Positions 22,493 through 60,443 of a stretch of DNA of 64,000 nt are shown piece by piece (position 1 is the stretch's first letter; the number at the start of each line of letters is the position of its first letter). A program made the position numbers and the translations under genes. A model generated the notes under the pieces. The model had not been told where the DNA came from. It did no database searches and saw nothing but the letters and a program-made list of their open reading frames with translations. The stretch lies in contig JAFGJW010000016.1 in NCBI GenBank assembly GCA_016928835.1, positions 1 to 64,000 of the forward strand, read 5' to 3'. The stretch comes from Candidatus Woesearchaeota archaeon. Its GTDB lineage: Archaea > Nanobdellota > Nanobdellia > Woesearchaeales > GW2011-AR15.

Positions 22493-23347
22493 ATGTTATC
22501 ATGGTTCTCATTATTGCTAATAAGCACCTTTCTTGCAGCCATCACAGCCATATTTCAAAAAGTAATACTAGATAATAAGGCTGATCCAATATTCTTTTCA
22601 TCATATTGGCAACTTATTACAGCTTTTATCAGTGTAATTAGTGTTTTATTATTCGGCTTTGAAGCTGATTCGATTAAAATTCTTGTCTTTGCTTTTATTT
22701 GTACCGGCTTGTTTTATGGGCTTGGTACCTACCTCTTCTTTATAGGGTTAAAAAACGCAGAGGCTTCAATGGCATCTATAATGAATCAAGTTAGAGTCAT
22801 CTGGGTTTTAATAGGTAGTTTTATTTTTTTTAAAGAACAAATTACATTAAATAAGCTTGGTGGAGTAAGTTTAATAATTGCTGGAATTTTTATTGTGTTC
22901 CACAAGGGCTTATCTTTAAGATTGAAAAGACCGCAGAGATTAATATTATTATCTACGCTATTTTTTTCATTGGGGATGCTTGCTGATAAGTATTTCATAA
23001 ATTTCTTCAATTCATATACATACCTGGTCATAGATTTTTTGGCGCCCTCATTATTTATAATAATTATATCACCACAAATAATAAAAGACTACAAAAACAT
23101 AAAACCATTTTCAAAAAATAATATCTTAACAGTTCTTGTTGCTTGTGTTTTTTTTGGTTCCATACTAGCTATGCTAACTGCATACAAGCTGGGTGCTGAA
23201 GTATCAATAGCTGTTCCCATTTTTCAGTCAGCAGTTGTTCTGGTTGTCCTGCTCAGCGCAGTATTCTTAGGAGAAAGAGATAATCTATTTAGAAAAATGA
23301 TTGGGTCATTGGTCACAGTATTTGGAGTTTGTTTATTATCTCTTTAA
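22493..23347 (+). CDS. EamA/DMT family transporter
   Basis: 284 residues with ten predicted membrane helices arranged as two five-helix repeats, the drug/metabolite transporter plan. The first half contains the typical ASMASIMNQVRVIWVLIGSF segment and the second ends with AVFLGERDN. Substrate unknown. The start is set by a TATA box (ATATTTATATA, about 22460) roughly 30 nt upstream, giving a leaderless ATG; the longer frame is rejected. Confidence 0.87.
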   Translation: MLSWFSLLLISTFLAAITAIFQKVILDNKADPIFFSSYWQLITAFISVISVLLFGFEADSIKILVFAFICTGLFYGLGTYLFFIGLKNAEASMASIMNQVRVIWVLIGSFIFFKEQITLNKLGGVSLIIAGIFIVFHKGLSLRLKRPQRLILLSTLFFSLGMLADKYFINFFNSYTYLVIDFLAPSLFIIIISPQIIKDYKNIKPFSKNNILTVLVACVFFGSILAMLTAYKLGAEVSIAVPIFQSAVVLVVLLSAVFLGERDNLFRKMIGSLVTVFGVCLLSL

Positions 23348-23465
23348 ATATAGAAAGAAAACATTGGTAACCCTTTTCTCATTTAAAAATTTTTATAGAA
23401 TTGATTATATTTCTTTTACAGCAATAATCTTTATAAATAAAAACAAATCTTCCTACAATCTTAGT

Positions 23466-24539
23466 ATGGATGAATTTGTTAAACTAGTTCTTGAAGACGG
23501 CACTGAGTATCTTGGAAAATCCTTTGGAGCGAGCCAAAATGCATCTGGAGAAGTTGTCTTCACCACTGGAATGGTTGGCTATCCTGAAACTATGACTGAT
23601 CCATCTTATAAAGGACAGATTCTTGTGCTTACTTACCCTTTAATAGGCAACTATGGTGTTCCTGAAAACATAGTTATTGATGAATTATCAATGAACTTGG
23701 AATCAGAAAAAATACAAGTTTCAGCATTGGCAGTATCTGATTATTCAGCTCAATGTAGCCACTGGAATGCAAAAATGTCTCTTGCCCAATGGTTGCAGCA
23801 AAACAGTATCCCTGGAATTTATGGGATTGATACACGTTCTTTAACAAAGAAACTTCGAGATAAAGGGGTAATGCTTGGTAAAATAATAGGCAAAGGCAAC
23901 ATCAGATTTTATGATCCGAACAAGAGCAATCTTGTTAGTCAAGTATCTACAGGCAAAGTAAAAATTTATGGCAAAGGCACCACAAAAATTTTGTTAATTG
24001 ACTGCGGCGCTAAACATAATATTATTCGCTCTCTGCTTAAGCGCGATGTTACAGTAATAAGAACGCCCTGGAATCATAATATCTTCAATATGAATTTTGA
24101 CGGGATTGTCATTTCAAATGGTCCGGGAGATCCCAAAATGTGTAGGCCAGCCATACAAAATATAAAAAAGGCCCTAAGTCATAGAATTCCCGTCTTTGGT
24201 ATATGCCTTGGAAACCAGATTTTGGCTTTAGCAGCGGGAGCCAACACATACAAACTTAAATACGGGCACAGGAGCCAGAATCAACCATGCACTGACAATA
24301 AAACAGGCAGATGTTACATTACAAGCCAAAATCATGGTTATGCTACAGATACAAAAAGTTTACCAGGTGGGTGGAATGAATGGTTCTTTAATTCAAATGA
24401 TAAGACCAATGAGGGCATAATCCACAAAAGTGGTATTTTCAGAAGTGTTCAATTTCACCCTGAAGCTAGTCCTGGCCCTCTTGACACAGGCTTTCTATTT
24501 GATGAATTTATAGAGGTTATAAGGCAAAATGGGAGATAA
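23466..24539 (+). CDS. carA: carbamoyl-phosphate synthase small subunit
   Basis: 357 residues. The N-terminal domain begins VKLVLEDGTEYLGKSFGA and the C-terminal class I glutamine amidotransferase has the nucleophile in FGICLGNQ and the dyad in FHPEASPGP. It supplies ammonia from glutamine to CarB for pyrimidine and arginine synthesis. The start is set by a TATA box (CTTTATAAATA near 23430). It overlaps the mazG-like gene by 11 nt, so the operon is carA-mazG-carB, interrupted by a homing endonuclease gene. One cytosolic histidine after the switch region reads QNHGYA, as in functional homologs. Confidence 0.95.
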   Translation: MDEFVKLVLEDGTEYLGKSFGASQNASGEVVFTTGMVGYPETMTDPSYKGQILVLTYPLIGNYGVPENIVIDELSMNLESEKIQVSALAVSDYSAQCSHWNAKMSLAQWLQQNSIPGIYGIDTRSLTKKLRDKGVMLGKIIGKGNIRFYDPNKSNLVSQVSTGKVKIYGKGTTKILLIDCGAKHNIIRSLLKRDVTVIRTPWNHNIFNMNFDGIVISNGPGDPKMCRPAIQNIKKALSHRIPVFGICLGNQILALAAGANTYKLKYGHRSQNQPCTDNKTGRCYITSQNHGYATDTKSLPGGWNEWFFNSNDKTNEGIIHKSGIFRSVQFHPEASPGPLDTGFLFDEFIEVIRQNGR

Positions 24540-24900: not shown

Positions 24901-24949
24901 AAAAGTGCTTATACTCGGAAGCGGAGTCTTGAAGATAGCTGGGAAATGA
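24884..24949 (+). pseudogene. 5' stub of carB, intronless, cut off before the homing endonuclease gene
   Basis: 21 codons starting at an ATG inside mazG. The peptide ends VLILGSGVLKIAG then Lys-stop, while CarB proteins continue KIGEAGEFDYSG. It is a second, diverged copy of the carB start found at 26263. Unlike that copy, its GGAGTCTTGAAGATAG is continuous, with no intron between the glycine-serine-glycine and KI codons. The stop TGA overlaps the endonuclease ATG (ATGA at 24946-24949), so the stub may now act as a leader that couples endonuclease translation to the operon. Confidence 0.8.
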
Positions 24950-26259
24950 TATACATGAACACTACCTTATTCACTGGACATTTCCACGTAGGATATTTAA
25001 ATGAATCCTTCTTAAATTCAAATATGTGTAGCTCCAATTTACCTAATGATTTTTCAAATTTTGTTATTACAAAAGATAGGGATTTAGGTATGAATAACAA
25101 AGAAAAATCAGATAAAAGTTGGATAGAGCTAGAGTTAAACTTTTGGGATTTGTCTAAGGATATAAGATTAAATCTTGATTCAGAATTTTGCAAAAAACTT
25201 TTTGATAGTTGCAAGCTAGATTTTCATTCACTGGCAGAGCAATTAAATGTTACTTATCCCTTTTTGAATCATTTAAGACGAAACATGTATTCTATTCCTC
25301 TAAGCAAAATTCTAAAACTGTCAAAATTGTCAAATATGCCTTTAAACAAAATTCAGGATAATATATCCTCTATTAGAGCGAGAGGAGGCACAGAAATTAA
25401 CATACCCTTACCAATAAAAGCTAATAAAACAATTGCTTCTCTCGTAGGTCATGTTTTTGGAGACGGATACATTGGTAAGACTAGAAAATATTTTGAGTAT
25501 TGTAATTTCAACCCAAAATTAATTGAACAAGTTAAAAAACAGATTCTTGAGTCTTTTGGCTTATATCCTATGTCAGAAAGAAAAGATAGGATAGGTTATC
25601 CTACTATTGTAGGAGAGATATTAAGAATATTTGGAGCCCCAGAGGCCCCTAAAATTTATAGTCCTAATCTTGTCCCAAAGTGGATTCTTCAATCCAAAGA
25701 ACATCAAAAATCTTTTCTGAGAGCGTTTTTTGACGACGATGGTTCAGTTATGTATAGTAAAAATTACAATGCTAAGGGTATAAACCTTAATGTTATAAGG
25801 CATATTAATCAAAAAGAAGAATTACTGACTTTATTGAATCAAATTAAAGTAATGCTAAGTAATTTTGAGATATATTCTGGGAATCCAATAATCTCAAAAA
25901 CCTATAAGAAACAAGACGGAATACATATTATTGGTTATATTAATATTACGGATTATCAAAGTATTATTAATTTCAACAAGTTTATTGGTCTTACATTTGG
26001 AGAAAAATATAAAAAATTAATTAAGATTGTAAACAGAAAAAATTATTACAATAAAAAAAATGAAATAAATATCAATAACGAGATTCTTACTCTTTTATTA
26101 AAGAAAAATTATTCTACTGCTGAAATTGCCAATGTGATACAAAAATCAAAAACTAAAACATTGAAAAAAATGAATCTTCTAAAAAAAAAGAATTTAGTAG
26201 AAATATGTGGCAAAGTTGCAGCTAATAGATCCTATCTATGGAAAATTAAAGGGAGATAA
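24946..26259 (+). CDS. LAGLIDADG homing endonuclease
   Basis: 437 residues. Two LAGLIDADG-type helices are visible: LVGHVFGDGY (166-175) and FLRAFFDDDGSV (about 257-268), each with the metal-binding acidic residues, so the protein can act as a monomer. Helix-turn-helix-like segments lie before (LAEQLNVTYPFLNHLRRN) and after (AEIANVIQKSKTKTLKKM) the catalytic part. The first 48 residues are less convincing; ATG at 25090 is an alternative start. It is inserted in the carB 5' region and flanked by the two carB starts. These enzymes cut a long target in an empty allele and so copy themselves. Confidence 0.93.
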   Translation: MIYMNTTLFTGHFHVGYLNESFLNSNMCSSNLPNDFSNFVITKDRDLGMNNKEKSDKSWIELELNFWDLSKDIRLNLDSEFCKKLFDSCKLDFHSLAEQLNVTYPFLNHLRRNMYSIPLSKILKLSKLSNMPLNKIQDNISSIRARGGTEINIPLPIKANKTIASLVGHVFGDGYIGKTRKYFEYCNFNPKLIEQVKKQILESFGLYPMSERKDRIGYPTIVGEILRIFGAPEAPKIYSPNLVPKWILQSKEHQKSFLRAFFDDDGSVMYSKNYNAKGINLNVIRHINQKEELLTLLNQIKVMLSNFEIYSGNPIISKTYKKQDGIHIIGYINITDYQSIINFNKFIGLTFGEKYKKLIKIVNRKNYYNKKNEININNEILTLLLKKNYSTAEIANVIQKSKTKTLKKMNLLKKKNLVEICGKVAANRSYLWKIKGR

Positions 26260-26262
26260 AAT

Positions 26263-29200
26263 GTGAAAAAAGAAATGTTACCTAAGAAGATTATGATTCT
26301 TGGTAGCGGTGCATATTAGTCTAGCAAAGCTAGCTAAGCAGAGTGAAGATCGGAGAAGCAGGCGAGACCTTTTAAAGGCGCTTATTCGATTACTCCGGTT
26401 CTCAAGCTATCAAGGCTCTCAAAGAGGAAGGGATAGAGACAATTCTCGTTAACCCAAACATTGCAACTATACAGACCTCTGAACACCTTGCTGATAAAGT
26501 ATATTTTCTGCCTGTTAGCCCTTATTTTGTAACCAAAGTTATTGAAAAGGAGCAACCAGATGGAATCCTTTTATCTTTTGGGGGGCAGACTGCGCTTAAC
26601 TGCGGTGTGGAATTATATAAAGGAGGTATTCTCAATAGGTATGAAATTCAGGTTCTGGGAACATCTGTACAGACAATAATCAACACAGAAGATAGGGATC
26701 TGTTTGTAAAGGAGTTATCAAAAATAGGAGTACTGAGTCCTAGAAGCACTGCTGCGCGTTGTGTTAAGGGCGCAGTTAAAGCAGCTGAGAGCATCGGCTA
26801 TCCAGTAATGCTCAGAGGCGCTTATTCACTTGGAGGCAAAGGCTCTGGTGTAGCTTATAACAGAAAAAAACTACTGGGAATGGCAAAAAGAGCATTTTCT
26901 TCACTTCCTCAGATATTGATAGAAGAATATCTAGGTGGCTGGAAGGAGATAGAGTATGAAGTTGTAAGGGATAAAGATGATAATTGCATTACTGTATGCA
27001 ATATGGAAAATATGGACCCAATGGGTATTCACACCGGAGAAAGCATTGTTGTAGCTCCTTCGCAAACTCTTACAAACTCAGAATACCATAAGCTCAGAGA
27101 GATATCAATAAAAGTAATAAGACATCTTGGAATAGTAGGGGAATGTAATATACAATTTGCTCTTGAACCAAATTCTGAGGAGTATAGGGTCATCGAAGTT
27201 AATGCACGCTTATCAAGGTCAAGTGCATTAGCATCAAAAGCAACTGGGTATCCACTTGCATATATAGCTGCTAAACTTGCACTTGGTTACTCATTGCCAG
27301 AATTAGAAAATAGTATAACAAAAATTACGAAAGCTTGTTTTGAGCCTGCCTTGGATTATATTGTTGTTAAAATACCCCGGTGGGATTTGCAGAAATTTAA
27401 GAGGGTAAGTAAAAAGATAGGCAGTGAGATGAAATCTGTAGGTGAAGTAATGTCAATAGCCAGAAAATTTGAGGAGGGGCTTCAGAAAGCTATTAGGATG
27501 CTTGATATAGGAAAGCAAGGTATTATAGACAATAATATTAATTTCAGGAAAATAGATGAATCTCTTAAGGCACCAACAGATAAACGGTTATTTGCAGTAG
27601 CTACTGCACTTAGAAATGGTATTACTATAGATGAGATTCATAATTTAACTAAGATTGACAAATGGTTCCTTTACAAAATAAACAATATTGTCCAAGTATA
27701 TAATGAATTAATAAATCAGCCGCTAGATAATCAATTGCTTCACGAAGCCAAGCAGCTGGGATTCTCAGACCAGCAGATTGCTGACATTAAAAAGTGTGAG
27801 GAACTGGACATAAGAAGATTAAGAAAAAGATGTAATGTCTTGCCTGTAATAAAACAGATTGATACTCTAGCTGCAGAGTATCCTGCAGCAACAAATTATT
27901 TGTACCTAACATACAATGGTACTGAAAATGACGTACAATTAGATAATAGAAAAGCTGTTCTTGTACTTGGTTCAGGTGCATATAGAATTGGCTCAAGTGT
28001 TGAATTTGATTGGTGCTGTGTAAATACTGTACGTACATTAAGAAAATTAAATTATAGGACATTAATGCTGAACTACAATCCTGAAACAGTGAGCACAGAC
28101 TATGATGAATGCGATAGCCTCTATTTTGATGAATTGAGTTTTGAGAGAGTGCTTGATATCTATGATTTTGAGAATCCTCTGGGCATTATTGTCTCTATGG
28201 GGGGCCAGATCCCAAACAATTTGGCAATAAGACTTCATGAGTCCGGTGTATACATATTAGGTACTCATGCTGAGAAAATTGATATGGCTGAGAATAGGCA
28301 TAAATTTTCCATGTTGCTCGACAAGCTCAATATTGATCAGCCTTCGTGGAAAGAATTGACCAATATTAAAGACATTGAAAAATTTTCTGACTTGGTTGGG
28401 TATCCAATTTTGATAAGGCCAAGTTATGTTTTATCAGGAGCTGCAATGAGTGTTGTTGAAAATAAGAAGTATCTGTATGATTTCTTGAAAAAAGCTGCAT
28501 CTGTCTCAAAAAAATATCCAGTTGTTGTATCAAAGTTCATAGAAAATGCAAAGGAAATAGAAATGGATGCTGTTGCAAAGGATGGCGAGATTATTGTTTA
28601 CGCGATCTCTGAACATATAGAAAATGCAGGAGTCCACAGTGGAGATGCCACAATGGTTCTTCCAGCTCAGAGATTGTATGTTGAGACTATAAGAAAAATA
28701 AAAAGAATCGGAAAACAGATTTCTAAAGCACTAGATATCAATGGTCCTTTTAACATTCAGTTCGTGGCGACACGCAATGAGATCAAGGTAATAGAATGCA
28801 ACCTTAGAGTATCCAGAAGTTTTCCATTTGTATCAAAAGTTTTTAAGATAAACTTTATAGAGCTTGCTACAAAAATCATAATGAAACAGCATGTTGAAAA
28901 GCCAGAAAAGTCCCATTTTGAGCTCGACTACGTGGGTGTAAAAGCTCCACAATTCTCATTTTCAAGACTAAAAGGGGCAGATCCCACCTCTTTTGTTGAG
29001 ATGGCTTCAACTGGTGAGGTTGCTTGTCTAGGTGATAATTTTTCTGATGCTTTTTTAAAGGCATTATTGTCAACAGGATTTAAGATACCGAAAAAAACCA
29101 TTCTCTTATCGACTGGGCCAGTTGAAAGCAAAGCTGACTTTCTGGCAAGTACAAGAAAATTACACAATAGGGGATATGAGTTCTATGCTACAAGAGGGAC

Positions 29201-29495
29201 TGCAATATTTATGAAGAATAATAAAATCCCTGTAAAAGTCCTAAGGTGGCCCCTGGAAAGAGAAGAGCCGAATGTGGTAACCTACCTAAGAGAAGGCAGA
29301 ATAGATTTTGTCGTGAATATTCCAAAAAATTATCACGAGGAAGAGCTTACTAATGATTATGTTATTAGAAGAACTTCGGTGGACTATAATGTTCCTTTGA
29401 TAACCAATCTTCAGCTCGCAAAATGCTTTGTAGATGCAATTACTTCGTATAAAGTAGAGGATCTTGAAATAAAGAGCTGGGATGAATACAGTTAA
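26263..29495 (+). CDS. carB: carbamoyl-phosphate synthase large subunit, interrupted by two micro-introns
   Basis: With 26315-26343 and 26367-26384 removed, the frame runs from GTG at 26263 to the stop at 29495 and gives 1061 residues, the normal CarB length. The spliced N terminus reads KKIMILGSGALKIGEAGEF then DYSGSQAIKALKEEG, as in other CarB proteins. The two ATP-grasp halves follow (PVMLRGAYSLGGKGSG; YPILIRPSYVLSGAAM) with a C-terminal regulatory domain. The GTG lies 4 nt after the endonuclease stop, with GGGAG upstream. Unspliced translation stops at TAG 26317-26319. Starting at an internal GTG (26607) would lose about 100 essential residues. If splicing does not happen the gene is broken. 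Confidence 0.85.
26315..26343 (+). other. carB micro-intron 1 (29 nt, BHB)
   Basis: Its position is fixed by comparison: the upstream stub has GSGVLKI uninterrupted, and removing these 29 nt gives GSGALKI. UGC before the 5' bulge AUA pairs with GCA before the 3' bulge AGU, with one G-G mismatch. The cuts fall after the second base of each bulge. The interior folds as UUAG-CUAGC against GCUAG-CUAA around AAA. It introduces a frameshift and an in-frame TAG if retained. Confidence 0.8.
26367..26384 (+). other. carB micro-intron 2 (18 nt, BHB)
   Basis: Only 18 nt, yet it makes a full BHB: central helix GGCG/CGCU (four pairs including G-U), 5' bulge AGA, 3' bulge UAU, and inner hairpin CCUU/AAGG. 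Cutting after the second base of each bulge joins GAG to TTC and restores the invariant GEAGEFDYSG. Retained, it adds an in-frame TAA. Confidence 0.82.
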
Positions 29496-45793: not shown

Positions 45794-47185
45794 ATGAGTC
45801 TTATGCAAATTTTGGGGCAGATTCCTTGCTTAGAACTTTCTGGAGAGGCTCCTTCCGGAAAGTGTCATGCTATTCATTTGAATTTGGATGATCTAAGTAG
45901 ACAACTTAGTATAGATATAGGTACCATCCCCCAGAATTTCCAGGGCACCACCCGAGATTTTGTAGCCTATTTGCCAGATGATTTATTATCTCTATACCGT
46001 GCAATGAGGTATTTGGATAGGCATCGAACTGAAATGGGCTACCATGTAAATAACTACTTTTTTTGTTTATATGGAGGTCAGGACGAAATCAACAGCTTTG
46101 GGCAAAGTGGAAGTGCAACAACAATCCACTGGCGTCGATTGGGAGACTCTGATCCGGGACCAATTCTTTTTCTGGACTACTTGTCTGGAATTGGCCTTCC
46201 TCATTGGCTTTTTCGTGAGGATCATAGTTGGTTTATCAAGGAGCAAGGATGGGACATGAGTAGAACCAGGTGGCAAATTGGTGCTCCATGGGCAGATCCT
46301 TGGGATCATTATAATGGTATCAGAGATTGGGTTATCAACCAATATATTTATAATGAACGACTATCAATAGACAGCATAGGAGAAATACTTTCTGATATTC
46401 TCGGCGTACAACTTTCATATGATCAGATTACTAACCTTGTTAGAGAGAGATGTGACCAAGTAATCAATTGGCCTGGGTTTGCAGAATCTGTTATAGCATA
46501 TTCCAGAGAACATATTGGAGAATTGAGACAAATCAGGCCAGAAATCAATCCTGGATTTACACGGACCGCTATAAGTGCATACTTAAGAGCTCATGAAGAG
46601 CAACAAGAATCTCAAGACCTAGCTGACATATATGCTCAGCGAACAAGAAGCAAGACTCTTGGCTTAGTAGCACAAGAAAATCCAAATGAATTCGCTGTAG
46701 GTGATATAAGGTATCTAAAAGGAAAAGATGTGACTAGAGAGGAATTATATGAGCTCGCAGAGGCTTTGAATGAACATTCATCAAAACCAGGATTTTTTGA
46801 TAGGCATTTTGGTGCTCCAGGACAAGAGTTCCAAGATGCACTTCGATGCCTTGTAGATTACTGTAATCTAAATTATTCTGTACAGATAGTTAGTGATACA
46901 GTCGCACTTATGCGGGCATACTGCGAAGCAACAAAAGGACAAGATCGTTGTAGGGAGATTGCTTTATCATCGGTTGAGACACTTAAACTTATGCAGACTC
47001 ATCACTTACAATTAGATGATGTTTTGGCAGATATTGAGAAAGAGTGTCAGTCTTATGTAGTAAGTATGGTCAATTGTCAGCAGACTATGGACTTTGGACT
47101 TCGACCCTTTACTCCTTTTAGAATAACATCACAAAGAATAGCTGCAGCACTTTCTAGAAAGTATTGTTCATCTCCCGACAAATAG
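45794..47185 (+). CDS. uncharacterized protein (orphan)
   Basis: 463 residues, no recognised family and no signal peptide or membrane span. The first third is aromatic-rich and beta-like (NYFFCLYGGQDEINSF, LDYLSGIGLPHWLFREDHSW); the rest is helical. Histidines and acidic residues in GLPHWLFREDHSW and WADPWDHYNG might form a metal site, but this is only suggestive. Arg and Gln are frequent and Lys scarce compared with neighbours, and CGA/CGT codons occur where neighbours favour AGA/AGG. GGGGTG precedes the ATG. It stands alone and its end overlaps the DUF655 gene. Confidence 0.6.
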   Translation: MSLMQILGQIPCLELSGEAPSGKCHAIHLNLDDLSRQLSIDIGTIPQNFQGTTRDFVAYLPDDLLSLYRAMRYLDRHRTEMGYHVNNYFFCLYGGQDEINSFGQSGSATTIHWRRLGDSDPGPILFLDYLSGIGLPHWLFREDHSWFIKEQGWDMSRTRWQIGAPWADPWDHYNGIRDWVINQYIYNERLSIDSIGEILSDILGVQLSYDQITNLVRERCDQVINWPGFAESVIAYSREHIGELRQIRPEINPGFTRTAISAYLRAHEEQQESQDLADIYAQRTRSKTLGLVAQENPNEFAVGDIRYLKGKDVTREELYELAEALNEHSSKPGFFDRHFGAPGQEFQDALRCLVDYCNLNYSVQIVSDTVALMRAYCEATKGQDRCREIALSSVETLKLMQTHHLQLDDVLADIEKECQSYVVSMVNCQQTMDFGLRPFTPFRITSQRIAAALSRKYCSSPDK

Positions 47186-50565: not shown

Positions 50566-50694
50566 ATGGAGCTGGCTGAAAGAATAAGAGAAAGCCTTTT
50601 AAAGAAGAACGTTGGTGACTTCCAGGAATTGTACACAAAAAAGATAAAAAAAGGATCTGAAAAAATAGAAAAGAGAATAAAATGCCGACAATAA
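50566..50694 (+). CDS. possible 42-residue helical protein
   Basis: From ATG 50566, preceded by AGAGAGG, the frame gives a charged helix (MELAERIRESLLKKNVGDFQ onward) and ends by overlapping the pheT start by 13 nt. The overlap pattern is the same as that of its neighbours, which supports a real coupled gene. An ATG at 50542 would add eight residues. No family recognised. Confidence 0.45.
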   Translation: MELAERIRESLLKKNVGDFQELYTKKIKKGSEKIEKRIKCRQ

Positions 50695-52985
50695 ATGTAA
50701 ATAGAAAAGTTCTGGATAAAATTCTTGGCAGGAAATTAACCGAGGATAAATTGAAAGACAGAATTTCTATGCTGGGCACGGCGCTGGAATCAATGGATGA
50801 TGAAGAGATACTTGTTGAAATCTTCCCCAATAGGCCGGATATGCTTTCTGAGCAGGGTTTCGGACGTGCCCTAAGCTCTTTTATTGGTTTAAAAAAAGGT
50901 CTCAGGAAATACAAAGTAGAGGCCTCAGGAGAAAAATGTATCATTGGCAAAGAAATGAAGGATGTGAGGCCGTATACCGCATGCGCTATTGTAAAGAATC
51001 TTAACCTTGATGATGAGAAGATAAAGGAAATAATAGAGGTGCAGGAGAAACTCCATATTACTTTCTGCAGAAAAAGGAAAAAGGCAGCAATAGGAATATA
51101 CCCATTTGAAAAAATAAAACCTCCGATATATTTTAAAGCGGATGTCCCTGAAAGGATTGTTTTTAGGCCTTTAGAATTTGCTAGGGAGTTGGATGCAAAG
51201 CAATTACTTAAAATTCATCCGACTGGCAGAGAATATGCGCACCTGGTTGAGAAGCTCGATAAATATGCTTATTTCATAGACTCAAAGAGAGAAATATTAA
51301 GCTTAACACCAATAATTAACTCGCATTTGACCGGAAAGATTACAGATAGAACAAAAGAAGCATTTATCGAAGTGAGCGGATTTGACTTTAATGTTTGCAG
51401 TATGGTACTAAATATTCTTGTATGCGCAATAGCAGACATGGGTGGGCATATATTTTCAATGGAGCTAGTATACCCTGATAAGACAATTGTTACACCTAAC
51501 CTAGAGCCAGCAAAAATGCATATTGACCTAGATTATGTCAATAAAAAGCTTGGCTTGAAAATCAATGAATCCCAGCTTAAAGAATTGCTTGAAAAGATGG
51601 GATATGATTATAAAGGAAAAACAGCTTATGTTCCTGCATATAGAGCAGATGTAATACACCCGATTGACATTGTAGAAGATATTGCAATAGCCTATGGATA
51701 TGAGAATTTCAACCCTGAGATTCCAGTTAAAGCCACTATTGGGGAGGAAAATGATTTTGAGAAGTTCAAGTCCAAGATAGCGCATCTTATGATAGGACTT
51801 GGATTTCTTGAGACAAGCTCATACCATCTTTCTAATAAATTAAACCAGTGTATTAAGATGGGAGTGGAGCTTGACGTGGTTGAATTGGAGAATGCACTGA
51901 CTCAGGATTATGACGCTCTGAGAGCATGGCTGCTTCCAAACCTGCTTCAAATACTAGGAGAGAACAAGCACAACGAATACCCTCAGGACCTATTCGAAGC
52001 AGGTATTGTATTTGCCAAGGATAAAAAGTCTGAAACAGGTATAGAAGAAAAGACACAGCTGGCATGCCTGCTTTGTTCAAAAGAAGCTGACTTTACTAGG
52101 ATAAGACAGGTTCTTGATTATATTATGCGGGCTCTTGACTTGAAATACAGTATAAAAGAAACAGAGCATAATTTATTCATACCCGGAAGAGCTGGAAAAG
52201 TTATTATTGGCAATAAGGAGACGGCAGCTATAGGAGAAGTCCATCCACAAGTACTTGAGAATTTTGATCTGGAAATGCCAGTAGCTGCCTTTGAATTGAA
52301 TCTAAGCGAGGTATTTTCAATACTGACTGAACCTAAAGTGATGTACAAACAAAAAGGCTTGCTGCAAATAAGTACAGATATTTTGGAAAAACATCCCAAT
52401 CTGATGTTAGCATCAAAACTTATAGAACATACAAAAATCCTTAAAACTTCACAAGAACTTGAATTAAGAAAGCAGAAGCTTGCAGACAAGTGGAAAAGTG
52501 AAAAAGATATCGAGTCACATAAAGAGTTAAGAGCCTATAAGGATTTCCACTATAAGCTCGGTTTGAAAGATTCAGCAGTTGCAGCTGAATCATTAATTAA
52601 GAGATATCTGAGCAAAGGTAAGTTTCCAAATATCAATTCTGCTGTAGATGCAGGCAACATTGTGTCTGTTGAATATATGACTTCTATTGGCATGTTTGAC
52701 TATGATAAAGTAAAAGGAGATATTAAGGTTAGAATGTCTGGAGAAGGGGATAAGTATCTGCCTTATGGCCAAAAGGCAGAACAGAAGATTGCTCCTGGCA
52801 GAATTGTTCTTGAGGATGAGGAGAAGATATTTGCGGTTGTTGGCTATAAGGATTCAAAAAAGACTTCTATAGATTTGAGTACAAAGAATATTTTGGTGGT
52901 TACATGGGGAGACAGAGAAAGAGATGCAGAGAAGATGGCTAAAGTGATGGATGAGATAGAAGGGATGGTTGGATTACTTAATTAA
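50682..52985 (+). CDS. pheT: phenylalanyl-tRNA synthetase beta subunit fused to a second B3/4-type domain
   Basis: 767 residues, about 200 longer than normal archaeal PheT. Residues 1-550 have the expected B1, B3/4, B5 and catalytic-like domains (FPNRPDMLSEQGFGRALSSF near the N terminus). Residues about 560-767 are a separate module: SHKELRAYKDFHYKLGLKDS, INSAVDAGNIVSVEYM, LPYGQKAEQKIAPGRIVLED, and NILVVTWGD. This matches the stand-alone B3/4 (COG3382-type) proteins, thought to edit or bind misactivated amino acids. The fusion is in one continuous frame. Confidence 0.88.
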   Translation: MPTINVNRKVLDKILGRKLTEDKLKDRISMLGTALESMDDEEILVEIFPNRPDMLSEQGFGRALSSFIGLKKGLRKYKVEASGEKCIIGKEMKDVRPYTACAIVKNLNLDDEKIKEIIEVQEKLHITFCRKRKKAAIGIYPFEKIKPPIYFKADVPERIVFRPLEFARELDAKQLLKIHPTGREYAHLVEKLDKYAYFIDSKREILSLTPIINSHLTGKITDRTKEAFIEVSGFDFNVCSMVLNILVCAIADMGGHIFSMELVYPDKTIVTPNLEPAKMHIDLDYVNKKLGLKINESQLKELLEKMGYDYKGKTAYVPAYRADVIHPIDIVEDIAIAYGYENFNPEIPVKATIGEENDFEKFKSKIAHLMIGLGFLETSSYHLSNKLNQCIKMGVELDVVELENALTQDYDALRAWLLPNLLQILGENKHNEYPQDLFEAGIVFAKDKKSETGIEEKTQLACLLCSKEADFTRIRQVLDYIMRALDLKYSIKETEHNLFIPGRAGKVIIGNKETAAIGEVHPQVLENFDLEMPVAAFELNLSEVFSILTEPKVMYKQKGLLQISTDILEKHPNLMLASKLIEHTKILKTSQELELRKQKLADKWKSEKDIESHKELRAYKDFHYKLGLKDSAVAAESLIKRYLSKGKFPNINSAVDAGNIVSVEYMTSIGMFDYDKVKGDIKVRMSGEGDKYLPYGQKAEQKIAPGRIVLEDEEKIFAVVGYKDSKKTSIDLSTKNILVVTWGDRERDAEKMAKVMDEIEGMVGLLN

Positions 52986-53051
52986 GGTTTTTTTTGGTTA
53001 ATTACCCTAAACCAGAAAATTGATTAATAAGTTGATTTTTCGCTCGATTGC

Positions 53052-54431
53052 ATGGGGAATATTGAATCTATGCTAGAACTAGAAAGATTTCCTTGTAGTC
53101 TGAAACATCTTACACCTGAAGAGGAACATATTCCTGAACGGATCAGAAGTCGGTGGAGATCTTCTAGTGAACCGATTAAACTAGGTTATTATTCAAAGTT
53201 AATAGTAACAAATTGTGTTTTTAGTGATATTTATTATCATGAAAAGAATTTGCCAACGTATAGATCAGCACGGTCAAGATATATGCTGCAAACAGGGTTG
53301 AGTGCTAGCCAGATGGATCAGATTGAGCGCGGTGTTATTGATTCAATTTATAATCAAGCTAAGCAATTTTGTTCAGATAAAAGAAGAAGACACCCCGCCC
53401 AGTTAGCAATGTTTTATTATGCTTTAGTATGTGGGATGGACCCTTTTAAAGCAGCAGGTTTTGCACAAATGAGTAATCAATGGAGTGATAGATTTGATAC
53501 TCCTGGTCTTGGGCACTATATTGAGAAATGGGGAATTCCCTTATTTGGAAGACTCAACAATGAGCAATTATACAGAATAGTGCATGAAGAATTTCAAGCA
53601 TTTATCCACGAAATTGAACCACAAGTTGGTAGGATGGTTGATAGAAGAGCAGAACAATGCATACTTGATTCAAGAAGAACAAAACGCTTTATGGAACAGG
53701 TGTCTGCATATGGACATGAGAGAGAAACTGGAGTAGATTTGGGAGCAGGCACAGGTATTCTAGGATTAACCTTTCTTAATATGGGTGGTAAAAAATTATA
53801 TGCTGTTGAGAAAGAGGAACTTTTATGCCAATTTATGAAAAGAGTTGCTAACCGACTTGGTTTTTCTTCTCGTTTTCAGATTCTTACTACAGATGCAACG
53901 ACTGTTAATCTATCGGAGAAGGCAGATTATGTCATCGCAGAATTGATACACACAGCAGGTTCTCAGGAACCTTTAGTTGCGGCTATTCTTAATAGCAGAC
54001 AATATATAACGTCTTCAACTAGATTTCTGCCTTCCAAAATAGTTACTGATGTCCTAATTAAGTCCGGACTCCCTATTTTGGGACGCGCCACTTATGATGT
54101 TCTGGATTTAACTTCAGTTGATTGTCTTGATAAAGAAGTTATAGTTGATGTTCCAATTACCCAATCTGGAACCTTAACAACGATTGAATATCATTCCGTT
54201 GTATATCCAGGTGAGTTAAGCACAGAAGACCACTATGTTTCACACACGTTGGGGGTCTTAAGTGACTTAGGAAGTTGGACAATATCATCTCAATTGCAGT
54301 CAGGAGGATATAGACGTCATACTGTTTTTGTTCAACCAGGAGACACAGTAAGATTAAGAATTAATTCCAGATATGGACAGCCTATACCAAAATGCGAAGT
54401 TCTAGATCTTATTAGACCAGATTCAATATAA
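53052..54431 (+). CDS. PRMT-like methyltransferase with novel N-terminal domain
   Basis: 459 residues. Residues 1-210 are helical and unrecognised. Residues about 225-345 carry a SAM fold: VDLGAGTGILGL (motif I near 227), AVEKEE (acidic second strand), and the acidic post-II loop ADYVIAELIHTAG. The order and the C-terminal beta-rich part (STEDHYVSHTLGVLSDLG, then RHTVFVQPGDTVRLRI) recall protein arginine methyltransferases, but the double-E loop is replaced by a single E. Arg-rich and Lys-poor like the other orphans. No ribosome site; an AT-rich promoter lies upstream. Confidence 0.65.
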   Translation: MGNIESMLELERFPCSLKHLTPEEEHIPERIRSRWRSSSEPIKLGYYSKLIVTNCVFSDIYYHEKNLPTYRSARSRYMLQTGLSASQMDQIERGVIDSIYNQAKQFCSDKRRRHPAQLAMFYYALVCGMDPFKAAGFAQMSNQWSDRFDTPGLGHYIEKWGIPLFGRLNNEQLYRIVHEEFQAFIHEIEPQVGRMVDRRAEQCILDSRRTKRFMEQVSAYGHERETGVDLGAGTGILGLTFLNMGGKKLYAVEKEELLCQFMKRVANRLGFSSRFQILTTDATTVNLSEKADYVIAELIHTAGSQEPLVAAILNSRQYITSSTRFLPSKIVTDVLIKSGLPILGRATYDVLDLTSVDCLDKEVIVDVPITQSGTLTTIEYHSVVYPGELSTEDHYVSHTLGVLSDLGSWTISSQLQSGGYRRHTVFVQPGDTVRLRINSRYGQPIPKCEVLDLIRPDSI

Positions 54432-54456
54432 TATAAGTGGAAGTTTTTATCCTATC

Positions 54457-55242
54457 TTAACCAATATAATTAGTCTCTTTGTATTGCCGTAATTTCTTTA
54501 GATATTTTGACTCTGGCACCTTTTTAAGTGCATCAATATCCTTAAACTGGGATTCAACAGCTTCTATTTCTTTTTGAAGGTTTTTCATATTGAGATTTAA
54601 AGAGAACTTCTTGTCAAGTATCTTAATTAGTTTCTCAGCTTCTTTTAAGCCGATATACATAGGATGGCCGTATGTTTCAGCAAGCAGGCAAATCGCATCT
54701 ATTCCTCTCATGCCAGCCAATCCTAGCAGCAATCCAGAGACACCTATTATTGGACCAACAACGCCATAAACCTTTGGATTAATGTTCGCACTATTTTTAT
54801 ACCTTTTTATTATGCTCTTTGAATTGGCAGTGCAATAGACTTTGGGCTCTTTAGGCACTGTTCTCAATCCAATACCTCCTAGAGTAATAATTTCATATCC
54901 TTTGGCTTCTTGAAAAATATCTAAAACTTTTTCACAGAATTCATAGCACGATTCTTCATCTATGGGCTGAACATCTCCAATAAGAAACAACAAATCCTTT
55001 TTCTTCAGCTTAGCATATCTCAACTCTATTTTGGGCAGCTCAACCATACTCTGCTCATTGACAAACACAGAGTGAGGCAGTCTGTGAGAAAAAAAGCTGT
55101 ACAGCTGTTTTGATTTCAATTGCTCCTGCATAAAATCAACGGCAATCTTGCCGACATTGCCAATTCCAGGCAACCCAGCTATCAAGATAGGTGAATTTAC
55201 CTTCTTTATCTGCAAATGCTTCTCAACGTTCCACAAACTCAT
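54457..55242 (-). CDS. PAC2-family proteasome assembly chaperone-like protein
   Basis: 261 residues. PAC2 pattern: ILIAGLPGIGNVGKIAVDFM, the LLFLIGDVQPIDEESCYEF strand-loop, and ITLGGIGLRTVPKEP. Homologs help assemble proteasomes or related complexes. The start at 55242 is 33 nt after a TATA box (AAATTATATAAAC), consistent with a near-leaderless mRNA; the longer frame is rejected. A C-terminal helical tail of 50 residues is charged. Confidence 0.85.
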   Translation of the reverse strand: MSLWNVEKHLQIKKVNSPILIAGLPGIGNVGKIAVDFMQEQLKSKQLYSFFSHRLPHSVFVNEQSMVELPKIELRYAKLKKKDLLFLIGDVQPIDEESCYEFCEKVLDIFQEAKGYEIITLGGIGLRTVPKEPKVYCTANSKSIIKRYKNSANINPKVYGVVGPIIGVSGLLLGLAGMRGIDAICLLAETYGHPMYIGLKEAEKLIKILDKKFSLNLNMKNLQKEIEAVESQFKDIDALKKVPESKYLKKLRQYKETNYIG

Positions 55243-55333
55243 TTTATGCAGTTGAAGATAGCCCTGTTTATATAATTTATGCAAATATGAAATCTAACAT
55301 TTTCAATGTGTTTTTAATTAAATTTAAATATAA

Positions 55334-56836
55334 ATGCGTATGACACAGGGCAAAATGACAACAATTGTTAGAGACTTGCGAGAAAAAATTCAGAATGCTT
55401 CTTCAACAATTACTTTAGACGATCTGCTTCTTACAAATTTTCCAGAATTGAGACAACAAAGTGGAGAACATTATATCAGCTATGAAGCTCTGGCTGATAT
55501 TATTAAGTTGGACACTGAAATTACAGATCAAGACTTAGAAAAGTTCAAACGAGCTTATAATTATGCTCAGGAACGTCACAAAGATGATAGGAGAAAATCT
55601 GAGGGTGTTCCATTTTATTATCATCTTGATAGAGTGCTATTAATGCTTTCCTTATTTGGGATAAAGAGAGAAGGAGTGGATATCCTAACAGCAGCTGTTC
55701 TTCATGATGTCCTGGATAATGTGAAAGAGAATGGCCAACGTTCCGAGATTGAGACTAAAATAAAGCAAGACTTTGGACCAGAGACATATTCTTTGATTGA
55801 AGCTATGTCAGATTCACACAAAACCAGCAACTATTTACAAAAGAGAGCAGTAAAAAGAGAACACCTAAGCCATATGTTTTACCATACTACCAACACATGG
55901 AACTGGATAATCCATATTCTTGACAGGATTGATAATCTAAGAGATGCAAGACAAGCTTATTCCTTTTCCACATTGCGAATGAAGCTTGAGGAGTGCTGGT
56001 TGTACTACCTTCCTATGGCTTATTCGCTGAGCCCAGTTTTGGGACAGATTATGGAACATCAACTTCATGGATTTGAGGACATATTCAGGCCAGAGGTTCT
56101 TATGCAATGTGATGATGGAGCAGTTCTTTATCAACCTCCCGCATATAAAGCTTATAAAGCACTTTCAGAAGCAATTCAATTTGAAGATGAGGGAGTTATC
56201 TTGGAACCTTCTGCATCTCAGGCTGGAAAAGCAGTCTCAGATACAATTCAATTATCTTATAGTTTATATCCCCGTTTGCCAGAACCTGAGACCGCACGCA
56301 GAATAAAAAAACCAATACAGAATACGTGTTGCGCAGCTTTTGATGAAGACAAATCAGCTTATGTTGTCCGTCTTGTCCACTTGCTGCATCATCAAGAAAG
56401 GCTTTCAGTTGCGTATATAGAAGAGTTATACCTTAGCATGCAGCCAAATGAGGAGCCAATGCAGGCAACTGATGAGCTTATCGGAGATATGGCAAGAATA
56501 ATAGACAGATTATTTCCACAATTGGAAAAATCTACTATGCAACAGGACTTATACACATCAGATAAAGGAAATCTAGTATATAGAATAACTATCGAGAATG
56601 CAGAGGGAATCAAAGAAATATTAAATATTGTAGAACAACAAGTATTTGCACAGGATGGTATTAGGATTGCATATTGGTATGGTCCAAAAGACTATACAGA
56701 ATCTACATCGCCACCTATTTGCAGAGGTGATGCATTGTATTATGTCCCGCAAGATGACAAAGGAAAAACTCAACTGTTAAGGGTTGTGTTTATACACCAA
56801 AACCCTGAATATGATTACAGATCAAGTTTTGGCTAG
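55334..56836 (+). CDS. SpoT/RelA HD-domain-like protein
   Basis: 500 residues. Residues about 75-215 follow the HD hydrolase domain of bacterial RelA/SpoT: YAQERHKDDRRKSEGVPFYY then H, AAVLHDVLDNV, a helix ending FGPETYSLIEAMS, and ILDRIDNLRDAR. The metal-binding H and HD are kept. The catalytic ED pair after HD (HDVVED in SpoT) reads HDVLDN, so activity may differ. There is no synthetase domain; residues 230-500 are unrecognised. Family members degrade (p)ppGpp, which is not established in archaea. It stands alone with its own promoter. Confidence 0.75.
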   Translation: MRMTQGKMTTIVRDLREKIQNASSTITLDDLLLTNFPELRQQSGEHYISYEALADIIKLDTEITDQDLEKFKRAYNYAQERHKDDRRKSEGVPFYYHLDRVLLMLSLFGIKREGVDILTAAVLHDVLDNVKENGQRSEIETKIKQDFGPETYSLIEAMSDSHKTSNYLQKRAVKREHLSHMFYHTTNTWNWIIHILDRIDNLRDARQAYSFSTLRMKLEECWLYYLPMAYSLSPVLGQIMEHQLHGFEDIFRPEVLMQCDDGAVLYQPPAYKAYKALSEAIQFEDEGVILEPSASQAGKAVSDTIQLSYSLYPRLPEPETARRIKKPIQNTCCAAFDEDKSAYVVRLVHLLHHQERLSVAYIEELYLSMQPNEEPMQATDELIGDMARIIDRLFPQLEKSTMQQDLYTSDKGNLVYRITIENAEGIKEILNIVEQQVFAQDGIRIAYWYGPKDYTESTSPPICRGDALYYVPQDDKGKTQLLRVVFIHQNPEYDYRSSFG

Positions 56837-56893
56837 TTTTTCTTAATCATATTCTGCAAAACAATTTTAAACTTGAACACTTTTGTAATTGAA

Positions 56894-57781
56894 ATGACTA
56901 AAAAACACACAGTAGGCGGCCAGGCAATTGTTGAAGGGGTTCTGATGAAAAATTCTAAAAGTTTAGTAATGGCTGTAAGAAAAAAAAACAATGAGATAAA
57001 AACAAAAAAGAGAAAGATACAAAATAAGAAATATCCGCCAGTTATTAGGGGGTTAGTAAATCTAATTGATATGCTTAAATATGGATTTGATGCAATCATA
57101 TGGTCAAGCAAAGAATATTATGAAGACGAGGAGCAAATAAGCAAGGCTGAAATCTTCACAACCGTAGCGTTATCAGCTGTATTTTCTATCGTACTGTTTG
57201 TTGCAGCCCCTTATTACATTACAATTTTAATGAGATTCAGTGAACTTCTTTCTCCTCTTGTCTTTAATCTTGTTGACTCCCTTGTTAAGATAGTCTTTTT
57301 TATCGTGTTTTTAGTAATTATCTCTTCAATGAAAGATATACGAAGGACTTTTGAATACCATGGAGCAGAACACAAAGTAGTTAATTGCTATGAACACGGG
57401 GAAAAGCTTACTGTAAAGAATGTAAAAAAATACAGCACGCTTCACCCGAGATGCGGCACTGCCTTCATTATGATTATTTTTTTAGTCAGCATTCTCGTTT
57501 TCTCTTTCTATCCCTTAATAATAACAGCCATATGGCCTGATTTCATTCTGGTGAAATCTATACCAAGAAGAATGGTGCTCTTCACATTAAGAATAATCTC
57601 AATTCCATTAATAGCTGGAATTTCATATGAATTTTTAAAATTCACAGCTGATAAAAAAGATGAAAGGGTTTTTGCCTCTCTAATTCTCCCCGGCCTGCTT
57701 TTGCAGAAACTTACAACAAGAGAACCAGACAATCGGCAGATAGAGGTCGCAGTAAAGGCACTGAAAGAGCTTATTTCCTAA
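56894..57781 (+). CDS. DUF1385 membrane protein
   Basis: 295 residues. N-terminal GGQAIVEGVLMK, a central EYHGAEHKVVNCYEH with several histidines and glutamates, and LHPRCGTAF are DUF1385 hallmarks. Four or five membrane segments. In bacteria the family is linked to cell division or envelope metabolism without a defined reaction; the invariant His/Glu/Cys suggest a metal-dependent activity. The stop overlaps the convergent coiled-coil gene by 11 nt. Confidence 0.85.
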   Translation: MTKKHTVGGQAIVEGVLMKNSKSLVMAVRKKNNEIKTKKRKIQNKKYPPVIRGLVNLIDMLKYGFDAIIWSSKEYYEDEEQISKAEIFTTVALSAVFSIVLFVAAPYYITILMRFSELLSPLVFNLVDSLVKIVFFIVFLVIISSMKDIRRTFEYHGAEHKVVNCYEHGEKLTVKNVKKYSTLHPRCGTAFIMIIFLVSILVFSFYPLIITAIWPDFILVKSIPRRMVLFTLRIISIPLIAGISYEFLKFTADKKDERVFASLILPGLLLQKLTTREPDNRQIEVAVKALKELIS

Positions 57782-58154
57782 GCACAAGTATATTCTGAAT
57801 AATCATCTTGAATTCATCCTTTGATATTTTATCTTCAAAACTAAACATAGCTACCCTTTTATTCAGTTTTTCAAAATCATCCCTTGTTCCAAGCGACTTA
57901 AAAAATTCTATCTGTCTAAGAAAATAGTTTGCAGAAGTCATAAAATCTTTTCTCATCTCATTCAGCTCATCTTTTAATAGCTTAATCTGTTCCAATACAT
58001 GTTCCGCTCCTGAGAGCCATTCTTTTTCCCTGGAATCAAGAAACCTTTCTATGTCATCTGCAGACATCTCGATATCATTGACACGATTGAAGGAATCTTT
58101 TACAATCTTGTCATACTCATTGCTTATACTTGGCTTGGTTGCTGTCTGCTTCAT
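57771..58154 (-). CDS. small coiled-coil protein
   Basis: 127 residues with a long coiled coil (about 45-95, EHVLEQIKLLKDELNEMRKD). No family recognised. It is convergent and overlapping with the DUF1385 gene and divergent from the large HhH protein. Confidence 0.65.
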   Translation of the reverse strand: MKQTATKPSISNEYDKIVKDSFNRVNDIEMSADDIERFLDSREKEWLSGAEHVLEQIKLLKDELNEMRKDFMTSANYFLRQIEFFKSLGTRDDFEKLNKRVAMFSFEDKISKDEFKMIIQNILVLRK

Positions 58155-58268
58155 ATATTAAAATAAATTGTTCTTGTATATATTTTTTATTGCAGCTATT
58201 AGCCATTGTTACTATTAATTAAATACAACAAAATTATATATACTGATATGATTAATCTTAATATCAAA

Positions 58269-60443
58269 ATGGCAAAAGATACTACTAATAAGAATATTCT
58301 GAAGGAACTACCGAGTCCTCCAGAACTTAATCAAGACAGTTCTCCTGAGCAAAAAGCACCTACAAAAGGGTTTTTCGGCAAGCTCTTTCAGAAGAAACCA
58401 AAACAGGACAAGATAGTGAAAGAATACAATGATTTCATAAGCGATACAGAAGAAGACACACCTATCCCAGAGACCCCTTTACTTACTGATGAAAAGGATA
58501 TTGAACTTGATATTCCAGAGCCGCCAAAAGAGATGGAAGAGATGCCTGCTAAGAAAAAAGTGGCTGAACAAGAAGAAGATTCACTTGAAGGTCTTGATAT
58601 ACCTGAGTTGCCCGACCTAAAAGAGTTTAAGGAAGATATGAAATTTGATGAAAAACCAGAAGATATTAAACCACAAGCGGCTTTGCCAGAACCTCCAAAA
58701 TTTGCTGTTCAGGAAGATACGAAAACATCTGGCAAAAATAAAAAGGGCAAAGCAGATAAAAAGGGCCGAGAAAAATCTGATATTAAGGATATGCCCAAAC
58801 CACCTAAGGAGCCTATTGATACGAAGCAAAAGTTTGAACTTGGCAATATTATCCCAGAACCTCCAAAGTTCATGGGCAAAGAGGTCTCAAAACCGGAACT
58901 TCCCGCACGAGAACCTGTTGATTTTGAGGAAATGCCTGAATTCCATTTCAATGAACTGCCTTCAAAGGAAGATGAGCCAGAAGCATTAAAGAAAATTGAA
59001 GAGGAAAAGGTTAATATAGAATTGCCAGAAATAGATGAGAAAGAGCTGGAAAATTTGGAAAAAGGCTTTGATGTTAAGGAAAAAGAAGAAACAAAATTAG
59101 AACAAATAGATAAAAAAGAAGAAGAAGAACCAAAGAAAATAATTGAAGAGAAACAAGAAGAACCTTATGTACCAGCAGCCCTGAATGAAGTGAAGGGTAT
59201 AGGGCCAAAGACAGAACAGGCTCTTAAAAAAATTAAAATCAAAACTGTTGACGAGCTTGCCGAAGCAGATCATAAGCATGTGGCAGACAAGCTAAAAATA
59301 TCAGAAAAAAAAGCAAAAAAGATAATTAAACATGCTAAAAAAATATCAAAAAAGAAAAGAGCGAGCAGACCACAAGAAGAGCAGAAGAGCGGAATCAGTG
59401 CATTGATCGAAGAGCTTGAAAAAGAAAAAGATGAGCTGCAGCAGCTAAAGAGAAAACTACCAGGCAAAGTAATTAAGATTAGAGGCCATGAGGACATACT
59501 TAATCTTCTTGAGAAACTGGAAAAGAAAAAGCTTGAATTAATTGAATATGAGACAAAGCTGAAAGAGAAGGAAGAGACACTTGAAACCCATAAAGAAACA
59601 CATAAAAGAGATGCTGAATATATAGACAAATTAAAAAGAAGACTAGATCATGATATCAGGGAAAGAACACAATACTTGGTTAATCTAGAAAAGGAATTCT
59701 TCAACCGCGGCCAGGAGCTGGCTAAGAGGCAGTCGGACACAGAGTTGAAAGAAGAACAGCTTAAAGAAAGAGGAGAAATGCTTCAGGATAAGGAGGCCAA
59801 TCTGAAAAAGCTTGAGCATGGTTTGGAGGATAAAGAGATTACAGTAAAGGCTAAAGAAGACAAAGTGAAGAATATATTGAAAGAGATGGACAAGCAAAGC
59901 ACTATGCTGAGACAAAAAGAAGAGGCACTAGAAAAGAGAGAGCTGGAATATCTAAAGAAGCTCGAGACATTGGAGGGCCACGAGAAAACAGTCAAGGAAG
60001 AACTTGAGCAGAAGAAGAAGGATCTTGAACACAAGGAGAAAAAATATTCTAAGAAGCTGAAAGAGGCAGAAAAAACAGAATTCCTCAAAGAAGAATTAGA
60101 GGACGAAAGAGACAAATTAGAAGATGATGAATTTAAGCAATACCTCCATGAAAAGCTTGGTCTAATCAAAGAGACTGGAGTAACAGTTGGTGATGTTGAG
60201 ACAACTCAACACCTTCACGTCCCAAAAGACAGTGAGTCTAGCGATGAAAATGTCAGTTCACTGATACACAAGTGCAGACATCTTGTTAAGATAGGAAGAA
60301 TAAATGAAGCAAAGTTACTATATAATAAAGTAAGAGATAAGTTCTACAACCTTAGATTGGGCTCAGATCCAGAGAAAGAGACAGTATATAATGAGATAAG
60401 GGGACTTTATGACGAGATAAATTTGGCAGATTTGGGAAAATAA
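58269..60443 (+). CDS. large HhH/coiled-coil protein
   Basis: 724 residues. Residues 1-280 are low complexity with repeated proline-leucine units such as LPEPPKF, IPEPPKF and DIPELPD. A helix-hairpin-helix pair is near residues 304-360 (LNEVKGIGPKTEQALKKI, DELAEADHKHVADKLKI). Residues 375-640 are a nearly continuous charged coiled coil. The C-terminal 80 residues are helical. The HhH suggests contact with DNA or RNA and the rest suggests a structural scaffold, perhaps in the envelope or nucleoid. Upstream ATG at 58248 is possible. The SpoIIM gene follows 7 nt downstream. Confidence 0.75.
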   Translation: MAKDTTNKNILKELPSPPELNQDSSPEQKAPTKGFFGKLFQKKPKQDKIVKEYNDFISDTEEDTPIPETPLLTDEKDIELDIPEPPKEMEEMPAKKKVAEQEEDSLEGLDIPELPDLKEFKEDMKFDEKPEDIKPQAALPEPPKFAVQEDTKTSGKNKKGKADKKGREKSDIKDMPKPPKEPIDTKQKFELGNIIPEPPKFMGKEVSKPELPAREPVDFEEMPEFHFNELPSKEDEPEALKKIEEEKVNIELPEIDEKELENLEKGFDVKEKEETKLEQIDKKEEEEPKKIIEEKQEEPYVPAALNEVKGIGPKTEQALKKIKIKTVDELAEADHKHVADKLKISEKKAKKIIKHAKKISKKKRASRPQEEQKSGISALIEELEKEKDELQQLKRKLPGKVIKIRGHEDILNLLEKLEKKKLELIEYETKLKEKEETLETHKETHKRDAEYIDKLKRRLDHDIRERTQYLVNLEKEFFNRGQELAKRQSDTELKEEQLKERGEMLQDKEANLKKLEHGLEDKEITVKAKEDKVKNILKEMDKQSTMLRQKEEALEKRELEYLKKLETLEGHEKTVKEELEQKKKDLEHKEKKYSKKLKEAEKTEFLKEELEDERDKLEDDEFKQYLHEKLGLIKETGVTVGDVETTQHLHVPKDSESSDENVSSLIHKCRHLVKIGRINEAKLLYNKVRDKFYNLRLGSDPEKETVYNEIRGLYDEINLADLGK

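Follow-up and report, generated by a model that had tools for sequence, protein, structure and literature searches.

The locus at 55334-56836 (+) raises the question of what an archaeal protein related to the alarmone hydrolases, small enzymes that degrade the starvation signal ppGpp, would do once the acidic pair of its active site is changed. It lies in the window, which is the whole stretch of 64,000 nucleotides analysed here. A sequence-only reading had described the product as a SpoT-like HD protein that may hydrolyse another nucleotide, such as NADPH, or serve as a sensor or an antitoxin-like protein. The features of the gene are listed in Table 1.

Table 1. Features of the gene for the 500-aa HD protein, with window coordinates.
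Feature	Position	Strand	Basis
Complete gene, 500-aa HD protein	55334..56836	+	ORF, coding preference, HD_4 match
N-terminal extension, residues 1-65	55334..55528	+	No significant family match (Pfam scan)
SAH/MESH1-type HD domain, residues 66-235	55529..56038	+	HD_4, predicted fold, Foldseek to MESH1
H97, metal ligand (= H53 of RelSeq, Rel from S. equisimilis)	55622..55624	+	His in 95/95 aligned HD domains
HDVLDN, residues 124-129; D128 and N129 replace ED	55703..55720	+	Glu at the D128 site in 94/95 others
Stretch with 6-residue insertion after HDVLDN	55721..55771	+	Spacer measurement; common only to the G014 protein
DRIDNLRD, residues 197-204: metal ligand D197, N201, SAH-type base-binding loop	55922..55945	+	Alignment
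C-terminal 265 residues without known relatives	56039..56833	+	Genome search, Pfam, model

The gene and the relationships of its HD domain

The open reading frame of 500 codons is a genuine gene. The chance of an open run of this length at this base composition is ~6e-16, and codon preference is gene-like in its own frame alone, at 0.225 bits per codon (remaining five frames: -0.2 to -0.4). The predicted product is a protein of 500 aa (58 kDa, pI 5.3), in which residues 74-210 match the Pfam family HD_4 (PF13328) with 40.9 bits (E 2e-10), exceeding the cut-off of 27.2. The same region also aligns with the N-terminal, hydrolase end of TIGR00691, a model of RelA/SpoT (6e-10). A Pfam scan of the full protein gave no other family over its cut-off; weak matches to FBA_2, HrcA and DUF6042 (E 0.004-0.16) fall below theirs and were taken as chance.

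By sequence, the closest solved structures are small alarmone hydrolases (SAHs), Drosophila MESH1 and Rel catalytic domains. An AlphaFold2 model that drew on 33 HD-region relatives is mostly confident over the HD domain, with a pLDDT of about 85 and blocks of 68-96 between residues 51 and 250. When the predicted fold was compared with the PDB using Foldseek, the top 30 matches were all Rel and MESH1/SAH structures; the MESH1 structures 9chy and 5vxa match with a target TM of 0.74 and an rmsd of 3.7 A. Taken together, the HD_4 and TIGR00691 profiles, the sequence matches to solved structures and the Foldseek matches link the protein firmly to RelA/SpoT/MESH1. The comparison with RelA/SpoT and MESH1 structures that the sequence-only reading had proposed thus returned Rel and MESH1/SAH as the best matches, and neither profiles nor fold point to a general HD family lacking a RelA/SpoT link, the outcome that would have told against it.

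The closer statement that the HD region follows SpoT was not upheld. Identity to the RelA/SpoT homologue (RSH) encoded in the same genome (L002:118-2031) is ~29%, the 500-aa HD protein falls outside the long-RSH clade in a tree of HD domains (support 99/85), and its base-binding loop is of the SAH/MESH1 type, as described below. The tree included no MESH1 row, and because the branch leading to the protein is very long (3.1 changes per column), its exact position is not fixed. The HD domain is homologous to those of the long RSHs (Rel/SpoT), from which the protein differs in having Asp at both the T151-type and the H147-type residue and in having no SYN, TGS or ACT domain; only the HD part of the HD-SYN-TGS-ACT architecture was found in the Pfam scan. 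The HD domain of E. coli RelA belongs to the same superfamily. RelA is, however, a full-length RSH whose HD domain is divergent and inactive (PMC3153485), whereas the 500-aa HD protein retains the metal ligands and carries no synthetase.

Greater likeness is seen with the SAHs, represented by the RelH/SAH proteins of Corynebacterium (7qoc), Leptospira (7qoe) and P. aeruginosa (6yvc), and with MESH1 (3nr1, 5vxa, 9chy). These resemble the 500-aa HD protein in their HD fold (target TM of about 0.65-0.77), the metal ligands, N201, a DRIDNL(R)-type loop and the lack of a synthetase, but they are proteins of about 180-230 aa without the N- and C-terminal extensions (65 and 265 aa), the DN in place of ED, or the 6-residue insertion after the motif. 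The 500-aa HD protein is thus not a small single-domain SAH; it represents a diverged form of SAH, not a novel type of system.

The C-terminal 265 residues match no Pfam family and have no relative in the 353 genomes of the order, in line with the earlier remark that this region was unfamiliar. They are modelled at low confidence as helices (about 294-393) followed by strands (402-488). Profile comparison ruled out a degenerate synthetase (P 0.32) and a degenerate ACT domain (P 0.051) in this region, so that the claim that no synthetase is attached, which the HD_4-only Pfam result also bears out, is sustained.

The active site and a second protein with Asp for Glu

The 500-aa HD protein was aligned with 95 other HD domains, archaeal and viral, from 46 full-length-sized RSHs and 49 shorter proteins. 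It keeps the metal ligands of the family (H97, H124, D125 and D197) together with N201 and R87. The motif reads H124-D125-V-L-D128-N129, with D128 and N129 at the position of the ED pair expected of an active alarmone hydrolase, exactly as the sequence-only reading had it. The first of these acids is Glu in 94 of the 95 compared domains. The second is mostly Asp, with Glu or Met in some RSHs and Asn in a few proteins; the RSH of this genome and the RSHs of family f1 read HDVVEES, HDVVEET or HDVIEES, with Glu as the second acid.

The loop around N201 reads DRIDNLRD, versus DRLHNMRT in nearly all RSHs, and in the alignment Asp at the His position and at the Thr position of this loop occurs only in shorter, SAH-type proteins; we therefore regard the HD domain as being of SAH/MESH1 type and not of SpoT type. 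The spacer from D125 to F147 has 22 residues, compared with 16 in 82 of the 95 domains measured.

The single other domain with Asp for Glu belongs to a 365-aa protein of genome G014 (L010:973-2070, -), which lies in another Woesearchaeales family than the source genome. Its motif reads HDVLDK, and its spacer from the Asp of HD to Phe-Gly is also 22 residues, a length that only these two have among the proteins measured (the longest other is 18). Both proteins thus have Asp in place of Glu, a changed second acid (Lys in G014) and the long spacer, and both are low in lysine, lack a synthetase and have long extensions, although their C termini give no confident alignment. A rare residue and a rare spacer are unlikely to have come together by chance in both proteins, so the two may form a divergent subfamily; a clade of the two is neither shown nor rejected by the tree (AU p 0.45). 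No third protein of comparable score emerged when profiles were run against IMG/VR and against overlapping sets of genomes (353 from the order, 371 from the phylum, 378 from the class), and no close relatives of the 500-aa HD protein turned up in GTDB genomes or IMG/VR when the protein itself or a two-row alignment served as the query.

An identical HD gene with identical visible neighbours is present in G126 (L112/L113; G126:C23 and G014:C1). The two metagenome-assembled genomes (MAGs) therefore share one sequence, and G014 and G126 were rejected as independent occurrences; as the genomes are assigned to two different families, a misbinned contig in one of them is suggested. Near the G014 HD gene lies a gene for a lysine-poor protein of 415 aa (L110:10176-11423, -). 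It contains a stretch like a degenerate RelA/SpoT synthetase, with VEVQV for EVQIRT and KFDTEV for YxSLHT (profile P 0.032), an assignment that is suggestive but unproven.

Alarmone genes of the lineage and possible roles of the protein

The premise that (p)ppGpp metabolism is not a standard archaeal trait is fair for archaea in general (PMC3153485, PMC8646023) but fails for this lineage. The search for synthetases that had been advised found two in the same genome: a 637-aa RSH (L002:118-2031, -) that combines HD, synthetase, TGS and ACT domains and whose synthetase motifs (GYQSLHT, EVQART) are intact, and a second, separate synthetase of 338 aa. Both genes are on contig C8, not on the contig of the 500-aa HD protein, and the genome belongs to the Woesearchaeota, the group from which the named close relatives of its RSH come. 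RSH-sized HD proteins (open frames of at least 560 aa) are encoded in about 80 of the 353 genomes of the order and in 8 of the 10 genomes of the source genome's family, and RelA/SpoT has been reported in 41.7% of Woesearchaeota, with a predicted bacterial acquisition (PMC8407392). The occurrence of the gene in an archaeon is thus not surprising here.

The reading that we favour, at a probability of about 0.45, is that the 500-aa HD protein is a lineage-specific derivative of an SAH, catalytically impaired, that would bind Mn2+ and a 3'-phosphorylated nucleotide and act as a receptor or a slow hydrolase. The HD pocket would hold one Mn2+ and a purine nucleotide phosphorylated at the ribose 3' (or 2') position, which would be cleaved slowly or not at all. 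The protein could then serve as a nucleotide receptor or buffer, and the bound state might be relayed to the unique C-terminal 265 residues. The presence of both a full RSH and a second synthetase gene in the same genome, whose products should make (p)ppGpp, makes that nucleotide a plausible ligand. The retention of H97, H124, D125, D197, N201 and R87 with an SAH-type base loop argues for this reading. So does the near-invariance of the Glu (94/95), the sole exception to which, in G014, shares the insertion and has Lys as its second acid. In human MESH1 a Lys at this same second position (D66K) gives a protein that is called catalytically inactive and was crystallised with NADPH bound (5VXA; PMC9894426) and with PAPS bound (9chy); a P. 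aeruginosa SAH mutant, E74Q, has also been crystallised (6z3o).

Other features of the site count against impairment. The change of E to D retains a carboxylate, so activity may be kept; D129N alone need not abolish it, as the RSH of this genome and several related ones carry E, M or N there; and dead enzymes often lose the metal site, which this protein has not done. As the protein is a single sequence with no close relatives, conservation of the ED change within its lineage cannot be shown. A broader proposal, which we consider rather unlikely, is that Woesearchaeales have a family of naturally 'trapped' SAHs that act as receptors, either of (p)ppGpp or of some other 3'-phosphonucleotide, and signal through lineage-specific partner domains. 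The changes of E to D and of D to N or K, with the 6-residue insertion, would then be an evolved counterpart of engineered substrate-trapping changes. With its pocket kept and its catalytic Glu dropped, the 500-aa HD protein is a candidate receptor of the alarmone signal, if that signal is made, and with the G014 protein makes up the two known candidates.

The main rival to an impaired, nucleotide-binding protein is a Mn2+-dependent phosphohydrolase that is active, with Asp doing the work of Glu and with a shifted substrate, for example (p)ppApp, NADPH, CoA, PAPS or another 3'-phosphonucleotide; we hold this to be a serious though tentative alternative. Every other pocket residue is intact, the second acid is already variable among RSHs of the order, and the 6-residue insertion next to the active site could reposition residues. 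SAHs are moreover promiscuous, acting on alarmones and NADPH (PMC9765508), and, in the case of MESH1, on CoA (PMC13221220). Such activity is harder to reconcile with a Glu that is otherwise invariant (94/95), with the alteration of both acids together in both odd proteins, and with the inactivation of MESH1 by substitution at the second position (PMC9894426). Were the protein an active hydrolase instead, Asp would be able to replace an invariant Glu in the SAH/RSH enzyme family.

Less probable is a fast-evolving gene whose alarmone-related function is lost or being lost and whose HD fold persists only as a scaffold. The great length of the branch, a C terminus without relatives, the absence of the gene from its otherwise conserved neighbourhood in a relative (G002) and its place among ~90 lysine-poor proteins, many of them without relatives, would all fit this; drift, however, would not preserve all metal and base-contact positions, and the frame is intact through 500 codons. 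Least probable is an antitoxin of SAH type directed against a toxic alarmone synthetase, on the model of bacterial SAHs that are self-resistance genes next to such synthetases (PMC9765508). The earlier suggestion of an antitoxin-like role finds no positional support: no synthetase gene is adjacent, as it would be in a toxSAS pair, the two synthetase genes being on contig C8, and PADLOC gave no match for the protein. The residue pair needed for hydrolysis is also changed.

Gene neighbourhood and lysine-poor proteins

The genes flanking the HD gene, identified by eye from their sequences, encode a PAC2-family protein, on the opposite strand, and a DUF1385-type membrane protein; a methyltransferase-like gene is a further neighbour, and no synthetase gene is near. 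Genome G002, from the same family, retains the linkage of pheS, pheT and the PAC2 gene but lacks the HD gene and the methyltransferase-like gene there, so that the latter two look like lineage-specific gains. No support was found for the HD gene having come from a plasmid or a virus. The methyltransferase-like gene (53052-54431, +), which is not beside pheT in G002, is also lysine-poor; its weak PADLOC match to mad2 of MADS (3e-9, residues 193-299) probably reflects only the methyltransferase fold.

By composition, the 500-aa HD protein is one of ~90 lysine-poor proteins of the genome, defined as soluble, of 200 aa or more and with lysine below arginine. The group has 4.2% K and 7.1% R, versus 10.7% K and 4.5% R in other genes, and its codon usage is host-like. 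Across 400 kb sampled from a relative, only 3 of 20 lysine-poor proteins have a homologue here, versus 117 of 184 ordinary ones, and the group appears to be a separate pool of proteins specific to the lineage. Five are encoded in the window, at 7567-8763 (-), 18862-19935 (-), 45794-47185 (+), 53052-54431 (+) and 55334-56836 (+), and about 85 more elsewhere in the genome; those scanned from the window mostly have no Pfam match, and a few of the group are recognisable enzymes. On contig C19 of G000, at about 50659-59115 (L104), several lysine-poor genes stand in a row and by eye resemble those for purine-synthesis enzymes, namely PurF-like (with MSGI instead of MCGI), PurL, PurQ, PurM and PurB, possibly a transferred operon.

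Elsewhere in the window, a 437-aa open reading frame at 24946-26259, by eye homing endonuclease-like, lies between two carbamoyl-phosphate synthase genes (23301-24539 and 26607-29495). The downstream large-subunit frame appears N-terminally cut, and the 437-aa frame is possibly an intein or intron-type insertion.
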